In this document: piece by piece, positions 3,537 to 62,961 of the stretch | Position numbering within the stretch: position 1 is the stretch's first letter | Layout of the letters: each line of letters opens with the position of its first letter | DNA from: Chitinophaga pinensis | GTDB lineage: Bacteria; Bacteroidota; Bacteroidia; UBA4408 | Assembly: GCA_945861665.1 (NCBI GenBank) | Contig: CAMAVS010000007.1 | Coordinates: 88,804 to 152,803 of the forward strand | DNA: 64,000 nt | Direction of reading: 5' to 3' | Notes under the pieces: model-generated | Told to the model about the DNA's origin: nothing | The model's database searches: none | The model's input: the letters and a program-made list of their open reading frames with translations, nothing else | Position numbers and translations under genes: made by a program

Positions 3537-6431
3537 TTACTCTAGAATAATTTTCTGAACCTTAGAGCCTTCCATTGTTTTAAAACTTATAAGATAAATT
3601 CCTTTTGATAGATGTTCGGTGTTTATTTGCTTTTTAAATGTCCCTAAAATAGTACTTTCTTCGCTCACAAAAATCGTTTGTCCAATTATATCCAGTATTT
3701 CTATACGTACATTTTCGTTTTTGCGTAAACTCGCTTCAATAAAAAATGCATTTTTAGTTGGATTTGGATACACACGCATTAGGTTACTGTTTCCTATTTC
3801 ATTTATACCAGTACAAGTAGCTACCACTACCCAAGATGTATCGGCACCTTCACAACCGTTTGCGCTATAGGTATATATTATTTGATGTGTTCCTACACCT
3901 GCCAAGGATGCATAAAAATGTCCGTTTATTGCACCTAATCCTACATACGTACCGCCTACAGGTAAACCTCCTGCTAATGCCACACCTACTTCATCCAAGC
4001 AAAGTGTATCCACATTTAAACTAAGTGTAACTATCGGCAATGGATTTACAGCAATGGCAAAATTGCTCGCACTTCCCACACCACACAAATTTATAGCATA
4101 TACTGAAATGTTACCGCTTGCCGCTCCAATTGCAAAATCTACTTGAATACTGTTTGTGTTATTTCCCATTGCAATAGTTGCTCCGGCAGGGAGATTCCAG
4201 TTGTAACCGCTTGCATTTGCAATTGCAGAAACAGAAAAAACAATTCCCAGTTCGCCTTCACATACAACTGCTGTACCGCTAATTATTCCAGCAACTCTAG
4301 GCAAATAATTTACAACAACAGCAAATATGGCACTTGCACCTACACCACAAGTATTTATTCCTTCAACCGTTATGTTGCCACTCATTACCCCATTTGTAAA
4401 ATCAACTGTAATACTATCGCCCCCCGCATTTGTAACATAGGATGCTCCAGCAGGAACAGTCCAATTATAACTACTCGCATTGGCAACAGAAGGCACAGAA
4501 TAGACAATAGCCATCTGTCCTTCGCATACGGTATCCGCTCCTATTATAACTCCTGCCGCAATAGGTAAAGGATTTACTGTTAAAGAAAAATTGCTTGAAA
4601 CAATTCCATTACCACAACTGTTAGTTCCCATAACAGTAATATTACCACCCATAGCATTGTTGGCAAAATTTACATTTATGCTGTTTGTGTTGGCGCCCGA
4701 AATGATTGAAGCCCCAAAAGGCAATGTCCACACATATCCTGTTGCGTTGCTAATACTTGAAATATAATAAGCAATCCAGCTTGCGCCTTGACAAACAGTA
4801 TCTGCACCCATCACATTATTCGCAGGAATGGGCAATTGATTTACAACAAGCCCTAAGGTAGATATGCCACCATTGTTACAGGCATTTGTTCCTTGAACAG
4901 TTATGTTTCCACTTATTGAACCAATAGGGAAATTCACTAAAATACTATTCGTATTTGCGCCTGCTACAATTATTGCTCCTGCAGGCAAAACCCAATTGTA
5001 TCCTGTTGCATTTGCAATGGATGGAACGCTGTAACTAAAACCTGACTGTCCTTCACAAACAGAGTTTATGCCGGTAATTGCTCCGGCATTCGCGGCATTA
5101 TTACAATATTTTAGTGTAGCATAATTTTGCTGACCGGTAGCCCCAGCAACATATCCCGTTACATATACATTTCCAATTAAATCTATTGTTATAGATTGTC
5201 CGTAATCTAATGCACTTCCTGTACCATTGTATTCTGCAACCCATTGTTGAACACCACTGTTATTATACTTTACGGTTGCATAATTATTTAACCCGAAAGC
5301 CCCTACGGCAGTTCCTGTAACGTATGTATTTCCAATTGTATCAATTGCAATTGCGTAAGCATAATCATCATTATTTCCTGCTCCGTTATACAAGGAAACC
5401 CATTGTTGGTTTCCGGCATTGTCAATTTTCAATGTTGCGTAGTTATTAAGTCCGTTTGCACCATAAGAGTAGCCGGTAACAAAACTGTTTCCTTGCATAT
5501 CCAAAGCAAGTGCTAATGGATAGTCGTTGCTGTTTCCAGTTCCATTGTACTCCGTTACCCATTGCTGAACACCACTTGTATTTAACATTAGTGTTGTAAT
5601 ATTATTTGCCCCAACAAGCCCAATTGAATAGCCTGTAACAAAAGAGTTTCCATTTGTATCTATTGCAAATGCCATAACAAAATCGTCACTGTTGCCTATT
5701 CCATTGTAGGTAGTTGCCCATTGTTGAATACCGCTGTTATTGTATTTCAACACAGCATAATTATTGCCTCCAGTTGCACCAATTGAATAGCCCGCAACAT
5801 ATACATTTCCGTTTTTTTCAATGGAAACCCCCTGAGGCACATCAGCAGCGTTTCCTGTGCCATTGTATTCTGTCACCCATTGCTGTACACCACTGTTATT
5901 GTATTTTACGGTGCCAAAATTTTGACCGCCAACGGTGCCTTGAACATAGCCTGTTACATAAACATTTCCACTAATATCAAGTGAAATGGACCGAGCTTGG
6001 TCGTTACCATTTCCTGAACCATTGTAGCTTGCAAGCCACTGTTGTACGCCACTGCTATTGTATTTTATGGTAACAAAATTATACCCCCCCAATGCCCCAA
6101 TGGAATAACCTGTTACATATACATTTCCATTCGCGTCCAATGCCATTGCTGCTGCTCTATCGTCATTGTTTCCGGTACCATTATATTCTGAAAACCATTG
6201 CTGCACACCGCTACTATTATATTTTACGGTTGTATAATTATACAATCCGGAAGCGCCATAAGAAGAGCCGGTTACGTAGCTGTTTCCATTTGCATCGACT
6301 AGTATTTTTTTTGCTAAATCGGTATTGTTGCCTGTACCATTGTATTCAACAGCCCACTGTTGGGTAACTTGCGCAGATGCAGTTTGAAAAATAAAAAAAG
6401 ATATTGAGAGTGCAGAGTATAGTTGTTTCAT
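3537..6431 (-). CDS. Secreted SBBP-repeat (beta-propeller) and PKD/Ig-like repeat protein with T9SS type A sorting domain
   Basis: Signal peptide; 8 repeats of 'QQWvteYNGTGN..D.a.aiaiD.nGN.yVTGys.G..G.nNyaTlKYn'; about 4 'GadtVCEGQ..i.YsVpsianAtgYnW.lPaGA' repeats; C-term RVYPNPTKNAFFIEAS...KGIYLISF. Confidence 0.9.
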   Translation of the reverse strand: MKQLYSALSISFFIFQTASAQVTQQWAVEYNGTGNNTDLAKKILVDANGNSYVTGSSYGASGLYNYTTVKYNSSGVQQWFSEYNGTGNNDDRAAAMALDANGNVYVTGYSIGALGGYNFVTIKYNSSGVQQWLASYNGSGNGNDQARSISLDISGNVYVTGYVQGTVGGQNFGTVKYNNSGVQQWVTEYNGTGNAADVPQGVSIEKNGNVYVAGYSIGATGGNNYAVLKYNNSGIQQWATTYNGIGNSDDFVMAFAIDTNGNSFVTGYSIGLVGANNITTLMLNTSGVQQWVTEYNGTGNSNDYPLALALDMQGNSFVTGYSYGANGLNNYATLKIDNAGNQQWVSLYNGAGNNDDYAYAIAIDTIGNTYVTGTAVGAFGLNNYATVKYNNSGVQQWVAEYNGTGSALDYGQSITIDLIGNVYVTGYVAGATGQQNYATLKYCNNAANAGAITGINSVCEGQSGFSYSVPSIANATGYNWVLPAGAIIVAGANTNSILVNFPIGSISGNITVQGTNACNNGGISTLGLVVNQLPIPANNVMGADTVCQGASWIAYYISSISNATGYVWTLPFGASIISGANTNSINVNFANNAMGGNITVMGTNSCGNGIVSSNFSLTVNPLPIAAGVIIGADTVCEGQMAIVYSVPSVANASSYNWTVPAGASYVTNAGGDSITVDFTNGVMSGNITVEGINTCGVGASAIFAVVVNYLPRVAGIISGTAVVCEGELGIVFSVSAIANASGYNWNLPAGATIAMGNNTNSIQVDFAIGAASGNISVYAINLCGVGSASNFAIAVNPLPIVTLSLNVDTLCLDEVGVALAGGLPVGGTYVGLGAINGHFYASLAGVGTHQIIYTYSANGCEGADTSWVVVATCTGINEIGNSNLMRVYPNPTKNAFFIEASLRKNENVRIEILDIIGQTIFVSEESTILGTFKKQINTEHLSKGIYLISFKTMEGSKVQKIILE
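5105..6360 (-). repeat. 8 tandem about 156-bp (52-aa) coding repeats (SBBP units)
   Basis: YNG(T/S/I/A)GN recurs 8 times at about 52-aa spacing within the 3537..6431 CDS. Confidence 0.85.
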
Positions 6432-50572: not shown

Positions 50573-52720
50573 CTACAAATTCGCAATAAAATAATCTGTA
50601 ATTTTTGTCATCAAATGTAGGCGATCTTTACCCAACACATTGTGAAGGTGTCCGGGGTAGGCAAAATAATCTATCGGCACATTTTTGTCGACACATTTTT
50701 TTATAAACACCAAACTATGTTGCCACACAACCACATCATCATTCGTGCCATGTATCATTAATAATTTACCCTTTAACTTTTCGGCATAGTTTAGTAAATT
50801 CGATTCATCGTAACCTTTTTTATTTGTTTGCGGTGTATCCATAAAGCGTTCGGTATACATTATTTCGTAATAGCTCCAATCAATCACAGGACCACCCGCT
50901 ACACCAACTTTAAATACTCCCGGGTGTCTTGTCATCAACGATGTTGTCATAAAGCCACCATAGCTCCAGCCGTGAACGCCCATCCTGTTAGCGTCAACAT
51001 AAGGCAAGGATTTTAAATACTCCACACCTTTTAGCTGATCCACCATTTCAATATTTCCCAATTGTTTAAAAGTTGCTTGTTCAAATGCCACACCCCTGTC
51101 TTCCGAACCACGCCCATCTACCGTAAATACAATAAAGCCTTTTTGCGCCATATACTGATACCAAAGGTCGCCACCGGCTTGCCAAGTATTGTAAATAAGG
51201 CGCACGCCCGGACCATTATACAAATAAACAATTACGGGATACTTTTTTGTAGAATCGAAATCAACCGGCTTAACCATTCGGCAAAACAAATCGATGTTGT
51301 TTTCGGTTTTTATAGTGAATACATTTAGTTTGCCTGTTTTGTATTCCTTTAGCGGGTTTTCAGCCTTAAATATTATTTTCTTTGCTGGCTTTACAGTATT
51401 CACAATAGCAATTTCGCGTGGTACAGTGGTACTGCTGAAATAGTCTATGAGGTACTCTTTGTTGTAATTAAACACAACATTGTGCGTTCCTTCTCCGCTT
51501 GTTATGCGTGCTACTTTCCCACTTTTTAGATCTACTTTATATACATCTTTATTTATAGGATTTTCCGTTGAAGCTGAAAAATAAATTTGCTGCCCTTTAG
51601 CATCAAAACCATTTACAGCCAACACTTCCCAGTTTCCTTTTGTGAGTTGTTTTATTAATTTTCCACTGATGTCATACAAGTAAATGTGGTTGTGTCCATC
51701 CCGTTCGCTTTGCCAAATAAAATTATTGTCGTTAATAAATTCCAAGGGGTGTAATGGCTGAACATATTTTTCACCTTTCTCTTCAAAAAGTGTCTGAATA
51801 AACTTTCCTGTAGTAGCATTGTAGCTGTTCAGCATCATATGATTCTGGTCGCGATTCAAAATAGCTATGTATACTTTTGTCTCATCATTACTCCAAGCAA
51901 CATTTGTTAGATATTGATCCTTTGGACTGCCTGTTTCTAAAAATGTCGTTTTGTCTTTCTTCACATCGTACACACCAAATGTTACTTCGTGACTTATTCC
52001 ACCCGCCATAGGATACTTGATATTCTTGTTTTCTGCGGGATTGGCACTAAAATCTAAAATGGGATAATCCTTCACCATTGTTTGGTCCATTCGGTAAAAA
52101 GCAAGGAAATTCCCTTTGGGCGACCAAAAAGTTCCTTTGTAAATCCCAAACTCTTCACGGTGAACCGATTTTCCATTTACAATATTCTCATTTTCATCTT
52201 TGGTTACCTGCGTTATTTTTGAATTTGCCTGAACAAAGAGATTGTTTTTTACTGTATAAGCTCTAGATTTTTGGATTGGTTCTTCGTCAGTATTTTCAGT
52301 CACATCCGTAAATAAGTTACTGCGTTGTTCTATTATTTTATTGAGGGTTAAATCGTAATAAAATTGTTGATTATTTGTTTTCACAATGAGTATATTTGAA
52401 TTGTCCCAATCAATTCCAAAAAAATTGGTGAGTGTGTCAACCGATTTTAATTTCGCCAATTCCTTGTTTATATCCACTAGTGCTACTTTCCCTATTACTT
52501 TTTCGGTAGCGGCATTGGTAATGATTAAAACTCCATTCTCAACATACACATAATTGGTACTATTGGGAATCCATGAAAGCTGCGTTAAGGATTTAGGGGC
52601 AAGAGCGCGCTGTTTAAGAACAACCTCTTCTAAGGTAAATAATTTGTTTTGAGCGGTTGAAAATTCACAGCATACAAAAAATAATAGTGCAGTAATCAGT
52701 GCTTTTTTCATATTGGGCAT
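50573..52720 (-). CDS. S9 family dipeptidyl-peptidase IV-like peptidase
   Basis: DGRGSEDRGVAFEQATFKQLGNIEMVDQLKGVEYL, GVHGWSYGGFMTTSLMTRHPGVFKVGVAGGPVIDWSYYE, MIHGTNDDVV. Confidence 0.95.
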   Translation of the reverse strand: MPNMKKALITALLFFVCCEFSTAQNKLFTLEEVVLKQRALAPKSLTQLSWIPNSTNYVYVENGVLIITNAATEKVIGKVALVDINKELAKLKSVDTLTNFFGIDWDNSNILIVKTNNQQFYYDLTLNKIIEQRSNLFTDVTENTDEEPIQKSRAYTVKNNLFVQANSKITQVTKDENENIVNGKSVHREEFGIYKGTFWSPKGNFLAFYRMDQTMVKDYPILDFSANPAENKNIKYPMAGGISHEVTFGVYDVKKDKTTFLETGSPKDQYLTNVAWSNDETKVYIAILNRDQNHMMLNSYNATTGKFIQTLFEEKGEKYVQPLHPLEFINDNNFIWQSERDGHNHIYLYDISGKLIKQLTKGNWEVLAVNGFDAKGQQIYFSASTENPINKDVYKVDLKSGKVARITSGEGTHNVVFNYNKEYLIDYFSSTTVPREIAIVNTVKPAKKIIFKAENPLKEYKTGKLNVFTIKTENNIDLFCRMVKPVDFDSTKKYPVIVYLYNGPGVRLIYNTWQAGGDLWYQYMAQKGFIVFTVDGRGSEDRGVAFEQATFKQLGNIEMVDQLKGVEYLKSLPYVDANRMGVHGWSYGGFMTTSLMTRHPGVFKVGVAGGPVIDWSYYEIMYTERFMDTPQTNKKGYDESNLLNYAEKLKGKLLMIHGTNDDVVVWQHSLVFIKKCVDKNVPIDYFAYPGHLHNVLGKDRLHLMTKITDYFIANL

Positions 52721-52846: not shown

Positions 52847-54406
52847 TTACTTTAACACCTTCACTAATTCAATATCAAAATAAAGTGTAGCATCGGATGG
52901 TATAAGCGGTGGGATACCTTTTTCTGCGTATCCTAAGTTCCCAGGAATAATCAATCTTCTTTTTTCTCCCATATGCATACCTAAAACACCCTCTTCCATC
53001 CCCTTAATTACTTTACCTGCTCCTAGTTTAAATTCAAGCGGGTTACCTCTTTCAATTGATGTATCAAAAACAATGGGCTTACGTAAAGAGTCTAAAATAA
53101 ATCCCACATAATTTACAACCACAACTTTTCCCGTAAAAGCTTTTATTGGATTTGGTAGCACTCCATCTCCATAGGCTGCAACGATATATTTTAAGCCTGA
53201 GCTCAATGTAACCGTATCTTTATTGGTTACATTAAAAAATGGTTCGCTTACATTCGTTATTTCAATATCAAAAAAAACCGTTGAGTTTTTTGGAACCCTT
53301 GATAACTCTATGTCTCCGTAAGCTAATTGAGGAGGGATTATTAAAATGGCTTTTGCCCCTTTGCGAAGCAATAAAGAGGCTTCTGTCCATCCTTTTAATA
53401 AGTTGGGGGAATTTGGCCTGAACACAACCGGTTGTTTCCTCTCAATGGTATTATCAAATATTATTTTATTTCCTTCTCCATTTTTTAAAAAACCTGTATA
53501 ATGCATCGTAATATAATTTCCTCTATTTATTAACGGTCCTGCCCCCGGATCAATAACTATAATAGCTAAGCCACTTTTTGTTTTAATAGTATCCTTTCCG
53601 CTTGCATCAAAAAATGGATTGTTTACTGCCAATAATTCTATATCAAAATAGACTATTGCTCCAAGAGGCACCTCTCCTGCAGGTTTAGTTCCATACGACA
53701 TTTCAGGACTAAGAATAAAAATGGATTTTTCCCCAATCTTCATTCCTGCTATACCAATATCCAGCCCTTTCAAAAAGCGCTCTGTTCCCAATTGAAAAGA
53801 TGCGGGCAAGCCAGTAACATAAGAAGATTCGAATATTCTTTTTTGTTTTTTGTCATTAATGTAATATCCTGTGTAATTTAATGTTACACCCATGAATGAC
53901 CTAGCAGGTTTACCGGTGCTACTTTTTATCAAAATCTTTTTTAACCCAAGGGCAAGCTGTACAGTGTCTTTTTGTTTTCCATCGTAAAATGCTTCTTCTA
54001 CTTTTAAAATCTTTACTTCAAGCAAAAAAGTAGTATTAGAAGGTATCTTAGCAATTTTCTTTTCACCAAATGCCAATTGTGGAGGAATGCGAAAAACAGC
54101 ACTATCCCCTTCACTCAACAATGCAATACCTTCGTCCCAACCTTTTAAAACATCACCTTGTCCTAATATAAAACTGTATGGATATTTATTGTTGTTACTA
54201 TCAAAAATGCTATCGAGTTTTATTCTAGAAAAATAATTCAAAAAAATCCTATTCCCGATTTTCGCTTTTTTGCCTTGCCCTTTTTTAATGATAGCATACT
54301 CCAAACCGGAAGTGGTCTTTTTAAACTTAATAGGCTTTTGAGGTTGCGCAACTAGTACTTTAGTAAAAAGCAATAAGAGGAGGAACCATACGTGTGTGTT
54401 TTTCAT
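52847..54406 (-). CDS. Secreted peptidyl-prolyl isomerase with four tandem FKBP-type domains
   Basis: Four copies of '..nY.G...d...FD.s......f.lG...lkG...gi.gm..Ge...iipp.laYG......ip.....fdIel..v'; signal peptide. Confidence 0.9.
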   Translation of the reverse strand: MKNTHVWFLLLLLFTKVLVAQPQKPIKFKKTTSGLEYAIIKKGQGKKAKIGNRIFLNYFSRIKLDSIFDSNNNKYPYSFILGQGDVLKGWDEGIALLSEGDSAVFRIPPQLAFGEKKIAKIPSNTTFLLEVKILKVEEAFYDGKQKDTVQLALGLKKILIKSSTGKPARSFMGVTLNYTGYYINDKKQKRIFESSYVTGLPASFQLGTERFLKGLDIGIAGMKIGEKSIFILSPEMSYGTKPAGEVPLGAIVYFDIELLAVNNPFFDASGKDTIKTKSGLAIIVIDPGAGPLINRGNYITMHYTGFLKNGEGNKIIFDNTIERKQPVVFRPNSPNLLKGWTEASLLLRKGAKAILIIPPQLAYGDIELSRVPKNSTVFFDIEITNVSEPFFNVTNKDTVTLSSGLKYIVAAYGDGVLPNPIKAFTGKVVVVNYVGFILDSLRKPIVFDTSIERGNPLEFKLGAGKVIKGMEEGVLGMHMGEKRRLIIPGNLGYAEKGIPPLIPSDATLYFDIELVKVLK

Positions 54407-54431
54407 ATAAATTTAAACCACATTATTTAGT

Positions 54432-57400
54432 TCATTTTTTTTCAATGGTCGCTTTTGTAAGCCCCGCTTTCATATATTTCAAACATTCTTTTTCAGCCTC
54501 GGCTATCGTTTTAAAGTCCCCGGCAGTATAGGTAATTGAACCATCCATATTTAACGATCCTTTCAAGTTGTTTTTCTTCAACAAATCAGACAAAGCAGCT
54601 TCGGGAGCAACGCCTTTTGGCACTTCGGCAAGCTTTATATAAAAAACATAACTTAATTCTGTTGCCAATTTTTGTGTTTTAATTATTACTATTAAACGTA
54701 GATCTGCACGGTTAGGTGATTTATTATTTAACATATTCAATTGGGTAATTAATGAATCCAATTGTTTTTGTTTTTGATCAAAATTTAAAATCTTATTGTT
54801 TGGATTTCTGTTGTTATTGGCTGGGTACGCTTTATTATTTTCAGGATCCACCTCTACCAATTCATATTTCCCATCAGCTCCGAATATTTTTTTCTTGACC
54901 TTTCTGTGTTTTTCAATCACATAGAATGAGTTAAAATAACTATCCATACCTTCCTCCAACTCTAATTTAATATTATTTTGGGCCAATGTAAACTTTTCGC
55001 CCAATACATTTTGATCCATACTTAATACATACGTTCCATATTGCACATAAAAATAAAATTCCCCTTTTGTATTTGTTAATGTGGTTTGTGTTTTGCCAGC
55101 AGTGTCTATAACAGACAGCTTTATGCGAGAAATATCTAAATCTTTTACAACATCGCTCGAATATTTTTCTCGGTCAATAACCACATTACCAAAAACTTTA
55201 ACTCCGCGAGTATAGGGGATATAATATATTTTTCTGCCGTCAATATCTAAACTATCCAAATGTTGATAAAACCATCCGCCAAGGTCAACCAACGAAAATA
55301 CATTGTAAGAATATCTTCCGGCAGGCATATTTGTCAAAAAGGCCGAACCTTTTTCATTGGTCAATATTTCATAATTATCAACCCTAATCACAATGTTTTC
55401 TAAAAGAGCCTCTTCCTTATCCATTACCCTATTGCCATTAAAGTCAAGGAACGCTAAAAATGTCGGACTGCCGTATGCTATTTTCGACCATTTTTTAGGT
55501 ATAGGAATGCCAAAATCTTTTTTTATTCCTACACCAATAGTAAAGACATTGCCCACCGTTGGCTTATCTAAATCATCCTCAAATGTTGATTGTGAAGTGT
55601 ATTGAAATTGTTTTTGCCGATTATTTCTTAAGTACGAATAATTCAAATCCAATCTTAGGCGCCAATCGTTATAAGTAAACAAATATACTTGTGGGTTAAT
55701 ATTTATATTATGAGAAAAAGCAGTATTGTTATAGGCGTAACTAAGGGGAAGCCTTAATACAAAACGTCTATTTTTAAATAAGTATTCGTATGAAAGAGAT
55801 GTTCTAAATATTTGAGGATAACTATTGGTGCTATACAATACTCTTTTGGCACCATAAATTCCGGCCGGACCATAATAATAATTTGCATTCATCGTGAATG
55901 TTTGCCATTGAACCATTCCATAAAATTGTAAACTAAACAACTCTTTTGTAATAGCGCTATCTATGTAACGATTATATCCTACAATTGATGAAACAGAAGC
56001 TCTCGTGTTCTTTTCTTGATTACCATAAAACGAATTGAACCCTATGCCTCTAAAATGCATTTTAGCAAGCGCTTGTTGAGAATAATTATAAAAAAAATTT
56101 GGAACTAAAGATCCTTTCTTTTGGCTTGATTTACTATAAGAAAAAGAGTTGCTGAATGCTAAGCGATCGTATTTCGAAAACCCCTTAAGTGAATCTTGCG
56201 ACTGAAAATAACTGTTACGCATACGAAGCAAGTAGGCTCTTGACTTAGGAGAAAACTTATTAGATAAAACAATAGAAAATTTTGATCTGAGCCTTACATT
56301 CGCATAATACGTATCACCAAAATTGGCAGACATTGATTGGTTCAGCCTTTGTTTAAGGAATAATGCACTATAGCCGCCATTAAAAAAATTGCCTTCTGTA
56401 GTAATCTGACCAGGGGCGTTTATGTTAGCTCTTGATACACGATAATTATAACCAACAAATAAACTCAAAAACTTATTTGCTCTGTAATTGGCTCGTGCAA
56501 AAACAAAACTGGCATCCGATGGAAGAATCAAAGATCGACTTTGACTTGAGCCTGCTGATAAGGTAAGTCTATTAAAAAAATTGCCACTTACCCCTGCTCC
56601 ATAACTATGGTTTATAGGTGACCCTAAGATAGGGCCTCTACTATAAAAAGCCGATGCTCTGAACCTTTTTGTATGATAACTTGCTGCAGATCCATTGCCG
56701 CTATTCATAGCTGTGGAGCCTCCAATACCCATCAAACCTGCATTTGTTCCTACACTAAAATCCCAATGCTTAGAATAGTAACCTAAATAAAATGAGCTGT
56801 TTCCCCTGGCAAGAAATTTTTCAGGAGAATAATAGGAAAAATTATTTTGTAATAAAAAGTTAAAACTCGAAGTGGGGCTAAGTAATTTATTTGAACGAAT
56901 AATTGTATTGCCAATGGGCTGAAAACCAAAAATATTATGAAAATTAGCTTCTACTGAAACTGGGATAATTGAGCTACGATAATTGTTTACAATTACATTA
57001 TCTGAGAGGCGAATAAAGTCAAGTGTTTTGCTGTACCTTACAGCATGAGTTTTATTAATTTTTTTAGTTACGGAGACGACTTTAGTTGCAACGGCAACTG
57101 ATTTTTTAGTGTCGCTTTTTTTTATTTTTCGTGTTTTGGGTTCCGTTGCTCTAAAAAAGATTGTATACTTTCTAGTTTCAAAAGCTTCTTTCGGGTTATG
57201 GTTATCCAGATCAACTCGTTTAAAGTTTCGAGGCACATCCTTTATATCTGCCAAAAATTTTAACGTTGTGTCATTTGAAGGGTTCAGCGTAATGTCAAAA
57301 AAACGTTTTTTAACTTCTTGGCCTGCTGTATCTGCAATATTGAGCGACTGTCCAACATGATTTATAAAAAGACTAATATCCTCTTTATCTTCGCCATTAT

Positions 57401-57962
57401 TAGCAACAGAAACACTAAATGGTGCTTTTTTGTGATCATTTAAAAAATAAATGCGGGATTCGGGTAATACATCCAATGCCCAACTCCTCTTGCTTGGTTT
57501 AGAAATTTTAAACATAGTATTATCCAATTGCTTTCCATCAATAGTTGCAATTAAAAAAACATTTATCATATACAGCGAACCGCCTTTAAATGTTAAAAGA
57601 GACGGAATGACGCGTACGGGAATGTATATGGAGTCACCCGCATTAACAGTATATATCTGTTTTGTGGAATTAAGAACCTTCCAATCGTTCGGACAATTAA
57701 CGTCTATGTAAAAATCTTTTGGAGTACCGTTAATGTTTTTTACTTTCAAAACATTTGATATCAATTCTGATTTTGTTTTTAACTCTATTACTTGCGAGCT
57801 GAAAGTAGCAGTAACCTTTTTATTGTTTTGATTTTGTGTTTGAGATCTCATCTCAAAAGGAAGAATAAATAATGAAAAAAGAAGGATAAATATGTATTTA
57901 TACAATAGCAAATTTCCTAAAGTGTGTGTTTTGATATTTGAATTTAGCAGCTTCTCCATCAA
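54432..57962 (-). CDS. Usher-like outer-membrane protein: Ig-like N-terminus, beta-barrel core, SdrD-B-like/CarboxypepD-reg domains, SPOR-like C-terminus
   Basis: 1176 aa; signal peptide; Tyr/Phe-rich alternating barrel-like region; FLDFNGNRVMDKEEALLENIVIRVDNYEILTNEKGSAFLTNMPAGRYSYNV; C-terminal YTAGDFKTIAEAEKECLKYMKAGL. Confidence 0.6.
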   Translation of the reverse strand: MMEKLLNSNIKTHTLGNLLLYKYIFILLFSLFILPFEMRSQTQNQNNKKVTATFSSQVIELKTKSELISNVLKVKNINGTPKDFYIDVNCPNDWKVLNSTKQIYTVNAGDSIYIPVRVIPSLLTFKGGSLYMINVFLIATIDGKQLDNTMFKISKPSKRSWALDVLPESRIYFLNDHKKAPFSVSVANNGEDKEDISLFINHVGQSLNIADTAGQEVKKRFFDITLNPSNDTTLKFLADIKDVPRNFKRVDLDNHNPKEAFETRKYTIFFRATEPKTRKIKKSDTKKSVAVATKVVSVTKKINKTHAVRYSKTLDFIRLSDNVIVNNYRSSIIPVSVEANFHNIFGFQPIGNTIIRSNKLLSPTSSFNFLLQNNFSYYSPEKFLARGNSSFYLGYYSKHWDFSVGTNAGLMGIGGSTAMNSGNGSAASYHTKRFRASAFYSRGPILGSPINHSYGAGVSGNFFNRLTLSAGSSQSRSLILPSDASFVFARANYRANKFLSLFVGYNYRVSRANINAPGQITTEGNFFNGGYSALFLKQRLNQSMSANFGDTYYANVRLRSKFSIVLSNKFSPKSRAYLLRMRNSYFQSQDSLKGFSKYDRLAFSNSFSYSKSSQKKGSLVPNFFYNYSQQALAKMHFRGIGFNSFYGNQEKNTRASVSSIVGYNRYIDSAITKELFSLQFYGMVQWQTFTMNANYYYGPAGIYGAKRVLYSTNSYPQIFRTSLSYEYLFKNRRFVLRLPLSYAYNNTAFSHNININPQVYLFTYNDWRLRLDLNYSYLRNNRQKQFQYTSQSTFEDDLDKPTVGNVFTIGVGIKKDFGIPIPKKWSKIAYGSPTFLAFLDFNGNRVMDKEEALLENIVIRVDNYEILTNEKGSAFLTNMPAGRYSYNVFSLVDLGGWFYQHLDSLDIDGRKIYYIPYTRGVKVFGNVVIDREKYSSDVVKDLDISRIKLSVIDTAGKTQTTLTNTKGEFYFYVQYGTYVLSMDQNVLGEKFTLAQNNIKLELEEGMDSYFNSFYVIEKHRKVKKKIFGADGKYELVEVDPENNKAYPANNNRNPNNKILNFDQKQKQLDSLITQLNMLNNKSPNRADLRLIVIIKTQKLATELSYVFYIKLAEVPKGVAPEAALSDLLKKNNLKGSLNMDGSITYTAGDFKTIAEAEKECLKYMKAGLTKATIEKK

Positions 57963-57963
57963 C

Positions 57964-58587
57964 TCAATTTTCTACTAAACAAAAATGGACTTTTACTGAA
58001 TATTGACCAGGTGTTATATTTAAAGATGGGGAAGGAATAATTCGATAATCAACCGTAAAAGAGAATTCATTATAATTTGTTATATAATTGCCAGGCCCAT
58101 TCACATTAGTGACACAAGAACCCGCTACATTAATGGCCCCTAGATCTTCTATTATAGGTATCATTTGCGCATTGGTAACAAACGCTTGATAAACACGATT
58201 ATTAATGGGTGTGTTACAGCCATTATATACTTCTACTTTTAATAAATCCAACCCGGGGGGGTTACCACTTGTCCCGTATATAACATTGCTACTCCAATCA
58301 GTTGCACCTACTGCGCCAATATTATCAATGGTCATATACAAGCCCCACTTACAAAGAGCTGTATTTGCTTGTACTTGCACTCGCAATTGTGTTTTTCCAC
58401 TCATGCCGATACCGCCAATTATTTTTGAAAAACTATCAAATGTAAAATCTATATTTTCTAATTGGCTGGCACTTACAATAATGCCACTCATAGGAACTCC
58501 TGCACATTCTGCAGTAACCACAAGGGGGCATTGAGAAAAAACAGGTTTGGTCACTATTAAAAAGAGAATTGCTATTAACAGCCTCAT
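57964..58587 (-). CDS. Secreted putative fibre subunit (paralogue of 58648..59445)
   Basis: Signal peptide; IDFTFDSFSKIIGGI, FSFTVDYRIIPSP, C-term PGQYSVKVHFCLVEN shared with neighbour. Confidence 0.55.
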   Translation of the reverse strand: MRLLIAILFLIVTKPVFSQCPLVVTAECAGVPMSGIIVSASQLENIDFTFDSFSKIIGGIGMSGKTQLRVQVQANTALCKWGLYMTIDNIGAVGATDWSSNVIYGTSGNPPGLDLLKVEVYNGCNTPINNRVYQAFVTNAQMIPIIEDLGAINVAGSCVTNVNGPGNYITNYNEFSFTVDYRIIPSPSLNITPGQYSVKVHFCLVEN

Positions 58588-58602
58588 AAACTATAATTTA
58601 AT

Positions 58603-58636
58603 AACCCCCCCGAAACAAAAACGATTCGAGGGGTTT
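58603..58636 (-). promoter_or_regulatory. Hairpin between the two putative subunit genes (attenuator/processing candidate)
   Basis: - strand AAACCCCTCGAA-(10 nt)-TTCGGGGGGGTT; 11 of 12 positions pair if G-U is allowed; no strong U-tract. Confidence 0.55.
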
Positions 58637-58647
58637 ATATAAAGGGA

Positions 58648-59445
58648 CTATTGATTTTCAATTAAAACATATTTCACATCCATAGTGTAAACACCAGGTT
58701 GTGCATAATCACCTACAGCACCTGAAGTTACTAAGTCATTTACAGCACCTGTATTATCAGAAGCAAGTGGAAAAATAGCAGGTAAGCCCGGAAGGACACG
58801 GTAGTCAATTACAAAATAGTAATCACTTGTTCCAACTGGAAAAAGTGTTGTCAAATAAGACCCCCCTGGTACCAAAGCTGTTGCTATTGCAGCTTCACCG
58901 CCATTAATGTATTTCTCACCATCAGGAGGGGAAACATAAGGTGTACCAGCTGCGCTTACATACACGTTATTTTGTCCATCGTTAGTACCTAAACCGGATA
59001 CCGGGCGGAATGCTCCGCTATAGTCGGCAAAGTTTGTGGCTGTACCAGGAAAATTGTTTGGTCCAAATTGATGCATTTCCAGCAAGTTTAGGGGTAAGTC
59101 ACTTCTCGCACCAGCAGAAGTACCTGCACCATAAATAACTTGTTGATCCCAAATATCTCCTACACCGCCCAAATGAGCATTGGAACTAGCTGCTGCATAA
59201 AGATCCCAAGATACAGAAGAGCTTACTTTAAGAACAGTTCCTGCGTATTTAGTGATACCTCCAATGTATTCAGGAATTTCATCAAATACGAAATCAATTT
59301 GATCAGGAGTAGTCATGTTCAATTGCAAAATTGGTTGCAAATCCATTGTAATAGTTACGTTTTTTTCATCTATTAACTGCGCATAAGAATTAGATGCTAG
59401 AATTGACCCTGCTGCTACTACAACTATAAAAATTATTTTTTTCAT
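58648..59445 (-). CDS. Secreted putative fibre subunit (candidate major subunit)
   Basis: Signal peptide MKKIIFIVVVAAGSILASNSYAQ; IDFVFDEIPEYIGGI, YYFVIDYRVLPGLP, C-term PGVYTMDVKYVLIENQ. Confidence 0.55.
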   Translation of the reverse strand: MKKIIFIVVVAAGSILASNSYAQLIDEKNVTITMDLQPILQLNMTTPDQIDFVFDEIPEYIGGITKYAGTVLKVSSSVSWDLYAAASSNAHLGGVGDIWDQQVIYGAGTSAGARSDLPLNLLEMHQFGPNNFPGTATNFADYSGAFRPVSGLGTNDGQNNVYVSAAGTPYVSPPDGEKYINGGEAAIATALVPGGSYLTTLFPVGTSDYYFVIDYRVLPGLPAIFPLASDNTGAVNDLVTSGAVGDYAQPGVYTMDVKYVLIENQ

Positions 59446-59597
59446 AATATAAAGAGTTTAAGTTTATTTTATTGATTTAAAAAGACTAACTACGCGAGCT
59501 TAAGCGCCTTTTCAAATATCGCCCTAGGCGACTATGAAAACATGGTGTCCTTTATCTTTCTTTTTGTATCATATTTTAGGTTAAAATATTAAGTTTT

Positions 59598-60587
59598 TTA
59601 TTGTATTAAAAATTCTAGCTCAGCAGTTTGTACATACTCTTTGCTTCCAAAATCAAGGACCCCCGCAGCCGAGTATTTGCCAGGCTTTAAAGTAGAAGAC
59701 AACTCAAAATAAAACTTTCTTACAAATCCTGGTAGTATTGTTACCTGCTTTATTGGCAACTTTGTTTGTTCACCTGTCGTTAAATTAATTAGCTCCAAAT
59801 AATTACTGCAAAAACCTATTCCGTTTCCTATATTTTTACATTCCATTTCAACAATTCTTTTATTCCCCGTTTCGTTATACTTAAAGCTTGTAATTTCAAC
59901 ATTATGGTTATTTACTTCGGGAGGATTTTGAAATACATACACTCCAAATCCTATGGAAGGAACAATTCCAAGCGCAAGGGTGTTTTTATTCGTTGATGAC
60001 TGGTCTAAAGGGGCTCTATCGCGTACTTCATCAATGGCTATAATTACCCAACCTGCTATTGCCGCACTATCAACATCGGGTATATCCAACTGCACATTAA
60101 TGTTTTTTTTCTCACCTGCTCTTAATTCAATATAGGAGGGAGAAATGTTTAACCATTTTGCAAGACCAAATTTACTTTCCCCGATTTTTGAATAAACGGG
60201 TTTCCCTAATTCACTTGCTCTAAATTCCTGTACGGTAACATTAAATTTCTTCGCTACTTTAGTATCATTAGTAACCTTAATGGTTTTTGTTTGGGCATTA
60301 CCCGGTTTCAAATTAAAGCGCAAAGTGCTTGGCGAAACAGCAACCCCTATTCCAGCATCAATAGTTGAACCCCTTTTTACGGTAGTGTCAGGTACATTAG
60401 TTTTACTTGAACCGGGAACAATAGATTTTTTTAAAGTATCGGCAGGTTGGGGTGCTCCTTTTTTTATAGAATCCTGTGCTACAACACCGGCAGATTGGGG
60501 AGCTGCCTTTTTTATAGAATCCTGCGCCACAACAGTTGTGATAGAAAGGAAATAAATTGATAACAATAAAAGATAAACTTTTGTCAT
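59598..60587 (-). CDS. Periplasmic chaperone-like protein (PapD/DUF916-like Ig fold)
   Basis: GIGVAVSPSTLRFNLKPGNAQTKTIKVTNDTKVAKKFNVTVQEFRAS...LNISPSYIELRAGEKKNINVQLDIPD; ORF track starts at 60725 but MTKVYLLLLSIYFLSITTVVAQ at 60587 is the likely signal-peptide start. Confidence 0.6.
   Translation of the reverse strand: MTKVYLLLLSIYFLSITTVVAQDSIKKAAPQSAGVVAQDSIKKGAPQPADTLKKSIVPGSSKTNVPDTTVKRGSTIDAGIGVAVSPSTLRFNLKPGNAQTKTIKVTNDTKVAKKFNVTVQEFRASELGKPVYSKIGESKFGLAKWLNISPSYIELRAGEKKNINVQLDIPDVDSAAIAGWVIIAIDEVRDRAPLDQSSTNKNTLALGIVPSIGFGVYVFQNPPEVNNHNVEITSFKYNETGNKRIVEMECKNIGNGIGFCSNYLELINLTTGEQTKLPIKQVTILPGFVRKFYFELSSTLKPGKYSAAGVLDFGSKEYVQTAELEFLIQ
60438..60533 (-). repeat. Tandem 2 x 48-bp in-frame duplication in the chaperone-like gene
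   Basis: VVAQDSIKKAAPQSAG / VVAQDSIKKGAPQPAD. Confidence 0.85.
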
Positions 60588-61662: not shown

Positions 61663-62961
61663 ATGAAAAAAACACTTTTCACATTAATATTTTTAATGTC
61701 ACTTTGTAATCTAAAAGCCCAAATCGGGTTAATCGGTAAGTTCCCATTCAGTGGCAATGCAAATGACGTTTCTGGTCAAGGGCATAATGGAATAGTTAAT
61801 GGTGCAACTTTAACTGCAGACCGTTTTGGCAATGCAAATTCCGCTTACTTGTTTGATGGTGTTAATGACTATATAGATATTGGACAAGGTTTTTCATACT
61901 CATCCCATTCGTTTTCTTGTTGGGCACGAAAAGATGACATCAATGGAAATAATCAAATTGTTTCCAAAATAAATAATGGACCTTTTGATACAAAAAATAG
62001 TGAGCTATCAGTAGATGGATTCGTTGTGGGGACTGGAAATGCTTGGGTAGGAATAAATAGTCAAAACCCTAATGTTAATTTTTCTAATTGGAGTCATATT
62101 GTTGGCTCGTATGATGTAATATCAAACAAAGTAAAGATTTATACAGATGGTGTGGCTGATTCAATATTAGCTCCAACTTACTTTGATGTTACAAATACAA
62201 ATATTTTTATTGGAGCACGACCTTTTTGGGGAGGTGCGAATGCAACAGCATTTTATTTTAAGGGAGCAATTGATGATTTATATATGTTTGATTATTCTTT
62301 ATCTAAAAATCAAGTTGATTCACTTTTTAATTTACCTAATCCTTGTGCCCCAACTAATTTTTCTCAAACTCTAACATTATGCGCAGGACAAACAGTTACA
62401 GTGGGTTTGAATACTTATAATAGTACTGGAATTTACACTGATATATTATCAAAAGTGAATGGCTGTGACAGTATTATAACAACAAATTTAACAGTTAATG
62501 CAGCTATTAATGTAGGCACTACTTTAAATGGTCTTACTCTTTCTGCAAATCTTGCCGGAGCAACTTATCAGTGGCTTAATAATTGCCCAAATTACACAGT
62601 AATAGCAGGAGCGACTAATCAATCTTACACCGTTTTAGCCAATGGAAATTATGCTGTGATTGTTACTGTTGGCAATTGCTCTGATACTAGTTTGTGTACA
62701 AATATTAATACAGTTGGTATTGAAAGTACAGATAATGATATTCGCATTGCTGCTTATCCAAACCCTGCTAACTCTGTTTTTACTATTTCAGGGATAGATG
62801 CAAGCGCATTCAAATCTGTCGAAATAATTGATTTGTCTGGAGCCGTTGTATTAAGAAAAAATACATATTCCGATATTGATATTAGCAGTTTAAGTAATGG
62901 CTTTTACTTTTATAAAGTAATTGGCTCAACAACTTTTACAGGGAAGATAATTAAGCAGTAA
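61663..62961 (+). CDS. Secreted LamG/concanavalin-like protein with T9SS sorting domain
   Basis: FPFSGNANDVSGQGHNGIVNGATLTADRFGNANSAYLFDGVNDYIDIG; C-term AAYPNPANSVFTISG...LSNGFYFYKVIG. Confidence 0.92.
   Translation: MKKTLFTLIFLMSLCNLKAQIGLIGKFPFSGNANDVSGQGHNGIVNGATLTADRFGNANSAYLFDGVNDYIDIGQGFSYSSHSFSCWARKDDINGNNQIVSKINNGPFDTKNSELSVDGFVVGTGNAWVGINSQNPNVNFSNWSHIVGSYDVISNKVKIYTDGVADSILAPTYFDVTNTNIFIGARPFWGGANATAFYFKGAIDDLYMFDYSLSKNQVDSLFNLPNPCAPTNFSQTLTLCAGQTVTVGLNTYNSTGIYTDILSKVNGCDSIITTNLTVNAAINVGTTLNGLTLSANLAGATYQWLNNCPNYTVIAGATNQSYTVLANGNYAVIVTVGNCSDTSLCTNINTVGIESTDNDIRIAAYPNPANSVFTISGIDASAFKSVEIIDLSGAVVLRKNTYSDIDISSLSNGFYFYKVIGSTTFTGKIIKQ

Follow-up and report, generated by a model that had tools for sequence, protein, structure and literature searches.

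The window, that is the whole stretch of 64,000 nucleotides that was analysed, contains five co-directional genes on the minus strand, named P1–P5 here in order of transcription, and all of the open reading frames proposed for them in the earlier note were confirmed, together with their coordinates and spacing. P1 (59598–60587) encodes a secreted, chaperone-like protein of 329 residues with two Ig-like domains (residues about 82–190 and 230–328), P2 (58648–59445) a putative major filament subunit of 265 residues, P3 (57964–58587) a subunit of 207 residues related to P2 and the probable tip, P4 (54432–57962) a predicted, usher-like outer-membrane barrel of 1176 residues, and P5 (52847–54406) a secreted protein of 519 residues with four FKBP domains, regarded as an optional accessory. 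The frame previously described as a 330-residue chaperone exists, but its 330 codons comprise 329 amino acids and a stop. Similarly, the 1176-residue frame is present 1 nucleotide after the P3 stop codon, but begins with TTG, and the codon directly following is an ATG (57959); the ATG is the likelier start and would give a protein of 1175 residues and a gap of 4 nucleotides to the P3 stop. No Pfam or NCBIfam family name could be assigned to P1–P4 at the cut-offs. Homologues in the same order in dozens of genomes indicate that P1–P5 are real genes and not chance frames. A DPP-IV/S9 peptidase gene (50573–52720) lies on the same strand, 126 nucleotides downstream of P5, and is probably outside the system. 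Elsewhere in the window, C-terminal sorting domains of the type IX secretion system are present in two proteins (61663–62961, plus strand, and 3537–6431, minus strand), of which one also has a Laminin_G_3 lectin-like domain and the other PKD_6 and β-propeller repeats; the organism thus also uses type IX secretion for surface proteins.

Of 395 class-level genomes, 46 encoded a relative of P4, and of 296 phylum-level genomes, 22 encoded a relative of P1. Since P4 sequences diverge too strongly for their alignment to serve in a search of the genome collection, this was run with the P2 family and returned 80 loci, mostly from metagenome-assembled Bacteroidota, largely uncultured and aquatic, with one record labelled Chlorobiota. 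The cassette is also found in isolates, namely the cultured marine flavobacteria Flavicella and Wenyingzhuangia. In the 54 loci with enough flanking sequence, selected through P2 alone, a P3-like and a P4-like gene were present in every case and a P1-like gene in 53, with the order P2-P3-P4 kept in all 54 and the full order P1-P2-P3-P4 in 46. Because the loci were picked on P2 only, the observed co-occurrence is not a selection effect; the related genomes within these counts are not independent. Loci anchored on P4 contained subunit-type genes in 35/35 cases and P1 in 27/35, and in several of those without P1 the locus is cut off by the contig edge or the P1 frame is interrupted. Distant versions (L084–L088) combine P1-type chaperones with barrels of ∼930 residues and with as many as five subunit genes of ∼180 residues in tandem, and distant P1-type loci also encode proteins of 342–478 residues with a C-terminal subunit domain, a build that resembles two-domain tip adhesins.

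The AlphaFold model of P1 (pLDDT 84.6) consists of two β-sandwich domains and is PapD-like. The top hit in a Foldseek search of the PDB was WxLIP from E. faecium (3.8e-12), followed by CfaA, CsuC, Caf1M, FimC, and PapD, in agreement with the PapD/DUF916 type of fold that had been suggested for this protein. At the level of sequence profiles, the P1 family matched EfmWxLIP1 across both domains (4e-7) and the E. coli fimbrial chaperones with 82% probability (E 1.1e-5), whereas the match of P1 to PF06030 (WxLIP_PGBD, DUF916) was borderline, with 26.4 bits against a cut-off of 27.3 (27.7 in the genome search), and PapD_N gave weak matches in 10 of 46 family members. The Arg/Lys anchors of PapD (R8/K112) have no conserved counterpart among P1 relatives; the corresponding residues in the E. 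coli chaperones, R44 and K148, are invariant there. On the basis of the model, a PapD-like two-Ig chaperone fold is predicted for P1. Behind the signal peptide of P1, a tandem duplication of 47 nucleotides (60440–60534, 87%) lies in a low-complexity linker, and three further loci (L089, L090, and L098) encode P1-type two-Ig proteins without a nearby barrel or subunit gene.

P2 matched the PDB entries 9IKK and 9IKJ ('TLP-2' and 'TLP-1', 16 chains in each entry) with an E-value of 8.6e-45 (phmmer). The alignment begins at the predicted mature N terminus and pairs residues 24–263 of P2 with chain residues 2–236 at 43% identity, making P2 a clear homologue of the TLP fibril subunit as judged by sequence. 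Both entries presumably represent the pond-water fibrils solved by cryo-EM in the CryoSeek work (Wang et al. 2024), although the tie to that study is itself an inference. According to a review, pond-water filaments of this kind have not been conclusively identified (PMC12967142). The source genome of TLP-2 was not found, the best identities being 55% in the collected loci and 50% in the 395 class genomes.

Two features of P2 are those of a filament shaft subunit. Residues 24–44 (LIDEKNVTITMDLQPILQLNM; 59314–59376, minus strand), at the mature N terminus, form an alternating strand that is near-invariant in the P2 family alignment and is proposed as the donor strand; an amphipathic strand of this type, with an alternating run of at least four, was found in 97% of the P2 family as compared with 5% of shuffles. 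The C-terminal strand (PGVYTMDVKYVLIENQ; 58651–58701, minus strand) has a Gly 14 residues from the C terminus, and a G-x-[YF] motif is located 13–15 residues from the end in 81 of 82 P2-type and 12–15 residues from the end in 76 of 77 P3-type proteins. Chaperone-usher pilins carry a G-x-[YF]-like strand motif ∼14 residues from the C terminus. Profile comparison of the subunits with E. coli pilins gave a match limited to 14 C-terminal columns. No WxL domain was detected in 59 subunits, no fimbrillin family was matched in the profile searches, and the P2 family has no conserved Cys; the P2 cleavage site ends in A-Q-L, with no lipobox cysteine.

The relationship of P2 and P3, proposed earlier as two related secreted proteins, was borne out by BLASTP (4e-8) and by comparison of the family profiles (99.6% probability, E 1e-24). 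An alternating N-terminal strand was not enriched in P3 relatives (2.6% compared with 1.1% of shuffles, 39 scoreable); the assignment of a donor strand and C-terminal β motif to P2, and the lack of a donor strand in P3, is a reading of sequence patterns alone. The P3 family contains four invariant cysteines, along with two others (C20 and C203) that each occur in 35 of 78 sequences, a pattern suggestive of disulfides. In four loci (L068, L070, L100, and L101) a P3-like domain is fused ahead of a P2-like domain, with the P2 strand motif as the linker between them, which places P3 before P2 in the chain. P3 is probably the tip of the filament, although its identity as such is inferred.

The gap between the P2 and P3 genes contains a hairpin (58606–58633, minus strand), proposed as a transcription attenuator. 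The junction (58590–58650) folds into a strong hairpin with −18.1 kcal/mol (z −2.3), its T-run is imperfect, and a simple terminator scan of the window itself revealed nothing special. The case for an attenuator consequently rests on comparison across loci, where a terminator-like hairpin with a T-run was observed at 58 of 73 P2-P3 junctions, but at only 3 of 64 P1-P2 junctions, where the gaps are comparable in length, and at 1 of 73 P3-P4 junctions. The conserved hairpin fits with a shaft subunit made in excess over the downstream genes. Neither TAnnTTTG motifs (the Bacteroidota −7 element) nor sigma-70-type sites were commoner than chance, and no promoter is therefore claimed.

The AlphaFold model of P4 (pLDDT 81.4, pTM 0.65, built on an alignment of 53 sequences) contains a large predicted barrel, as the earlier note had supposed. 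N-terminal Ig-like domains (residues 50–275; 57138–57815), assigned from predicted strands and a weak NPCBM_assoc match, precede a barrel of about 26 strands (residues 309–820; 55503–57038), counted by DSSP on the model. These are followed by two C-terminal sandwich domains (residues 831–1040; 54843–55472), supported by the model and a CarboxypepD_reg match (3.8e-5), and by a SPOR-like domain (residues 1107–1176; 54435–54644; all minus strand), for which a profile match to PDB 1X60 (E 0.0013) is accompanied by the SPOR order of strands and helices in the model. It is possible that the SPOR-like end is a peptidoglycan anchor, although anchoring is only inferred. This end is not universal: relatives of P4 are mostly about 1000 residues long and exceed 1100 residues in 16 of 71 cases, and in two loci (L181 and L164) a weak SPOR match is found on a separate gene.

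The SPOR-like domain, together with WxLIP as the closest relative of P1 in both sequence and fold, would be compatible with a Gram-negative counterpart of the WxL/WxLIP loci, in which P1 stays surface-bound to P2 and P3, P4 is an anchoring porin, and no long polymer is exported. WxLIP binds WxL proteins and has not been described as a chaperone (PMC10599100). Such an arrangement is considered unlikely, as the subunits lack a WxL domain, P2 is homologous to the 16-chain entry, and both the hairpin following P2 and the strand confined to P2 fit a shaft subunit.

A fold search of the PDB with the P4 model placed FimD and PapC at all of ranks 1–8 (8.7e-13 to 2.6e-10), ahead of FepA, LptD, and BtuB (about 1e-6). 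Superposition on ushers was nevertheless weak, with TM-scores of 0.2–0.4 and r.m.s. deviations of 14–20, and BtuB and Cir superposed equally well or better. No insertion between the barrel strands of the model is long enough for an usher plug, Pfam Usher (PF00577) matched neither P4 nor ten relatives, and hhalign against E. coli ushers gave only 1.5% and 0.7%, so that no sequence homology is detectable. As this profile comparison was empty, usher homology is not claimed for P4. Canonical ushers were likewise not found over the curated cut-off in any of 198 Bacteroidota genomes, with a positive E. coli control. A single sub-threshold Usher match was obtained, to a 994-residue protein in L196:4711-12778 that lies beside a P1-family chaperone (9e-24); neighbouring genes encode several small secreted proteins, two with weak DUF4402 matches, and a protein with FliG-like domains. 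This locus is a possible bridge between the Bacteroidota P1–P4 system and true ushers.

The missing usher signal and the comparable TM-scores of BtuB and Cir leave room for P2 and P3 to form a filament with the help of P1 but be exported by another route, P4 being some other barrel such as a receptor, an anchor, or a generic porin. There is little to recommend this, since P4 adjoins P3 in 54 of 54 loci, ushers outrank every other type of barrel among the fold matches, and the one protein with a sub-threshold Usher match adjoins the same chaperone family.

The presence of four FKBP domains in P5 was confirmed (FKBP_C 3e-87, four stretches). The suggestion that the operon has its own prolyl isomerase foldase may hold for this locus, but P5-like proteins occur beside P4 relatives in only 9 of 54 loci, identifying P5 as an optional accessory and not a core component. 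The genes 3′ of P4 vary from locus to locus (rRNA methyltransferase, M1 peptidase, TPR protein) and, as a result, no additional core member is proposed.

Taken together, these data make it likely that the operon specifies a pathway of the chaperone-usher-like type for assembling a surface filament, with P1 as chaperone, P2 as shaft, P3 as tip, and P4 as platform. In the periplasm, every secreted subunit would be taken up and stabilized by P1, and P3, having no donor strand, would start the chain as the tip. P2 would then polymerize, with the N-terminal strand of each copy filling the groove of the preceding subunit, an exchange inferred from the strand and not itself demonstrated. P4 would serve both as the pore in the outer membrane and as the platform for assembly, and its SPOR-like end may tether it to the peptidoglycan; export through P4 is also inferred. 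The hairpin after the P2 gene would keep the major subunit in excess, and P5, where present, may aid proline folding, a role likewise inferred. This interpretation is drawn from the fixed gene set and order, the matches of P1, the homology of P2 to TLP, the strand found only in P2, the C-terminal Gly motif, the P3-P2 fusions, the P2-P3 hairpin, the FimD/PapC fold matches of P4, and the barrel with a sub-threshold Usher match next to the P1-family chaperone in L196. Counted against it are the absence of usher homology and of a plug in P4, its low TM-scores with BtuB and Cir fitting equally well or better, the restriction of the pilin match to 14 C-terminal columns, and the lack of conserved PapD anchors in P1.

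The chaperone-usher-like interpretation of the earlier note is thus supported with its foldase and usher parts toned down, and none of the three outcomes it gave as refutation (a chaperone without PapD/DUF916 fold, a 1176-residue protein without a barrel, and homologues that do not co-occur) was encountered, the genes being found together in fixed order. 'Usher-like' is a fair description of P4, but that it is an usher has not been shown, there being neither detectable sequence homology nor a plug-sized insertion; formal membership of the chaperone-usher family is not claimed, as P4 did not match the usher sequence family. It is a more tentative proposal, for which the balance of evidence falls somewhat short, that these loci form a separate Bacteroidota-wide chaperone-usher class with a WxLIP-type chaperone, a plugless barrel, and TLP-type aquatic filaments, and that WxLIP and the pilus chaperones constitute one fibre-assembly superfamily.

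Among known systems, the archaic and alternative chaperone-usher pili (Csu, CFA/I) share with the Bacteroidota operon a two-Ig chaperone fold, CfaA and CsuC being among the top fold matches, subunits with an alternating N-terminal strand and a C-terminal Gly motif, and a barrel gene in the operon. They differ in that the Bacteroidota barrel and subunits lack sequence homology to theirs, as well as Pfam Usher and a plug-sized insertion, and in that P4 has a SPOR-like end. The WxLIP (DUF916/DUF3324) proteins of Gram-positive WxL loci have the same fold as P1 and are its closest sequence relatives over both domains, but no WxL domain is present here, and P1 is instead partnered by filament subunits and a barrel in the outer membrane. 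The type V (FimA/Mfa1) fimbriae, made from lipoprotein precursors, are not known to have a dedicated chaperone or barrel; they too are Bacteroidota surface fibres and would share strand exchange if the inference made here is right. That the operon is a variant of these, the characterized Bacteroidota fimbriae, can be set aside as very improbable given that no fimbrillin was matched, that the cleavage site of P2 lacks a lipobox cysteine, and that a dedicated two-Ig chaperone and barrel are present. TLP-1 and TLP-2 (9IKJ/9IKK) belong to the same subunit family as P2, which here comes with an operon that includes a chaperone, a second subunit, and a barrel.

Chaperone-usher pili are textbook systems. 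Those of the archaic class have been described in Proteobacteria, Cyanobacteria, and Deinococcus-Thermus (PMC4654587), and a working counterpart across Bacteroidota would, if true, extend the range and evolutionary depth of chaperone-usher assembly. As the cassette is carried by cultured Flavicella and Wenyingzhuangia, the proposal is directly testable. If correct, it would further link filaments of the 9IKJ/9IKK type to a set of genes, to probable hosts, and to a route of assembly, the cluster suggesting which bacteria produce TLP-like fibres, and how.
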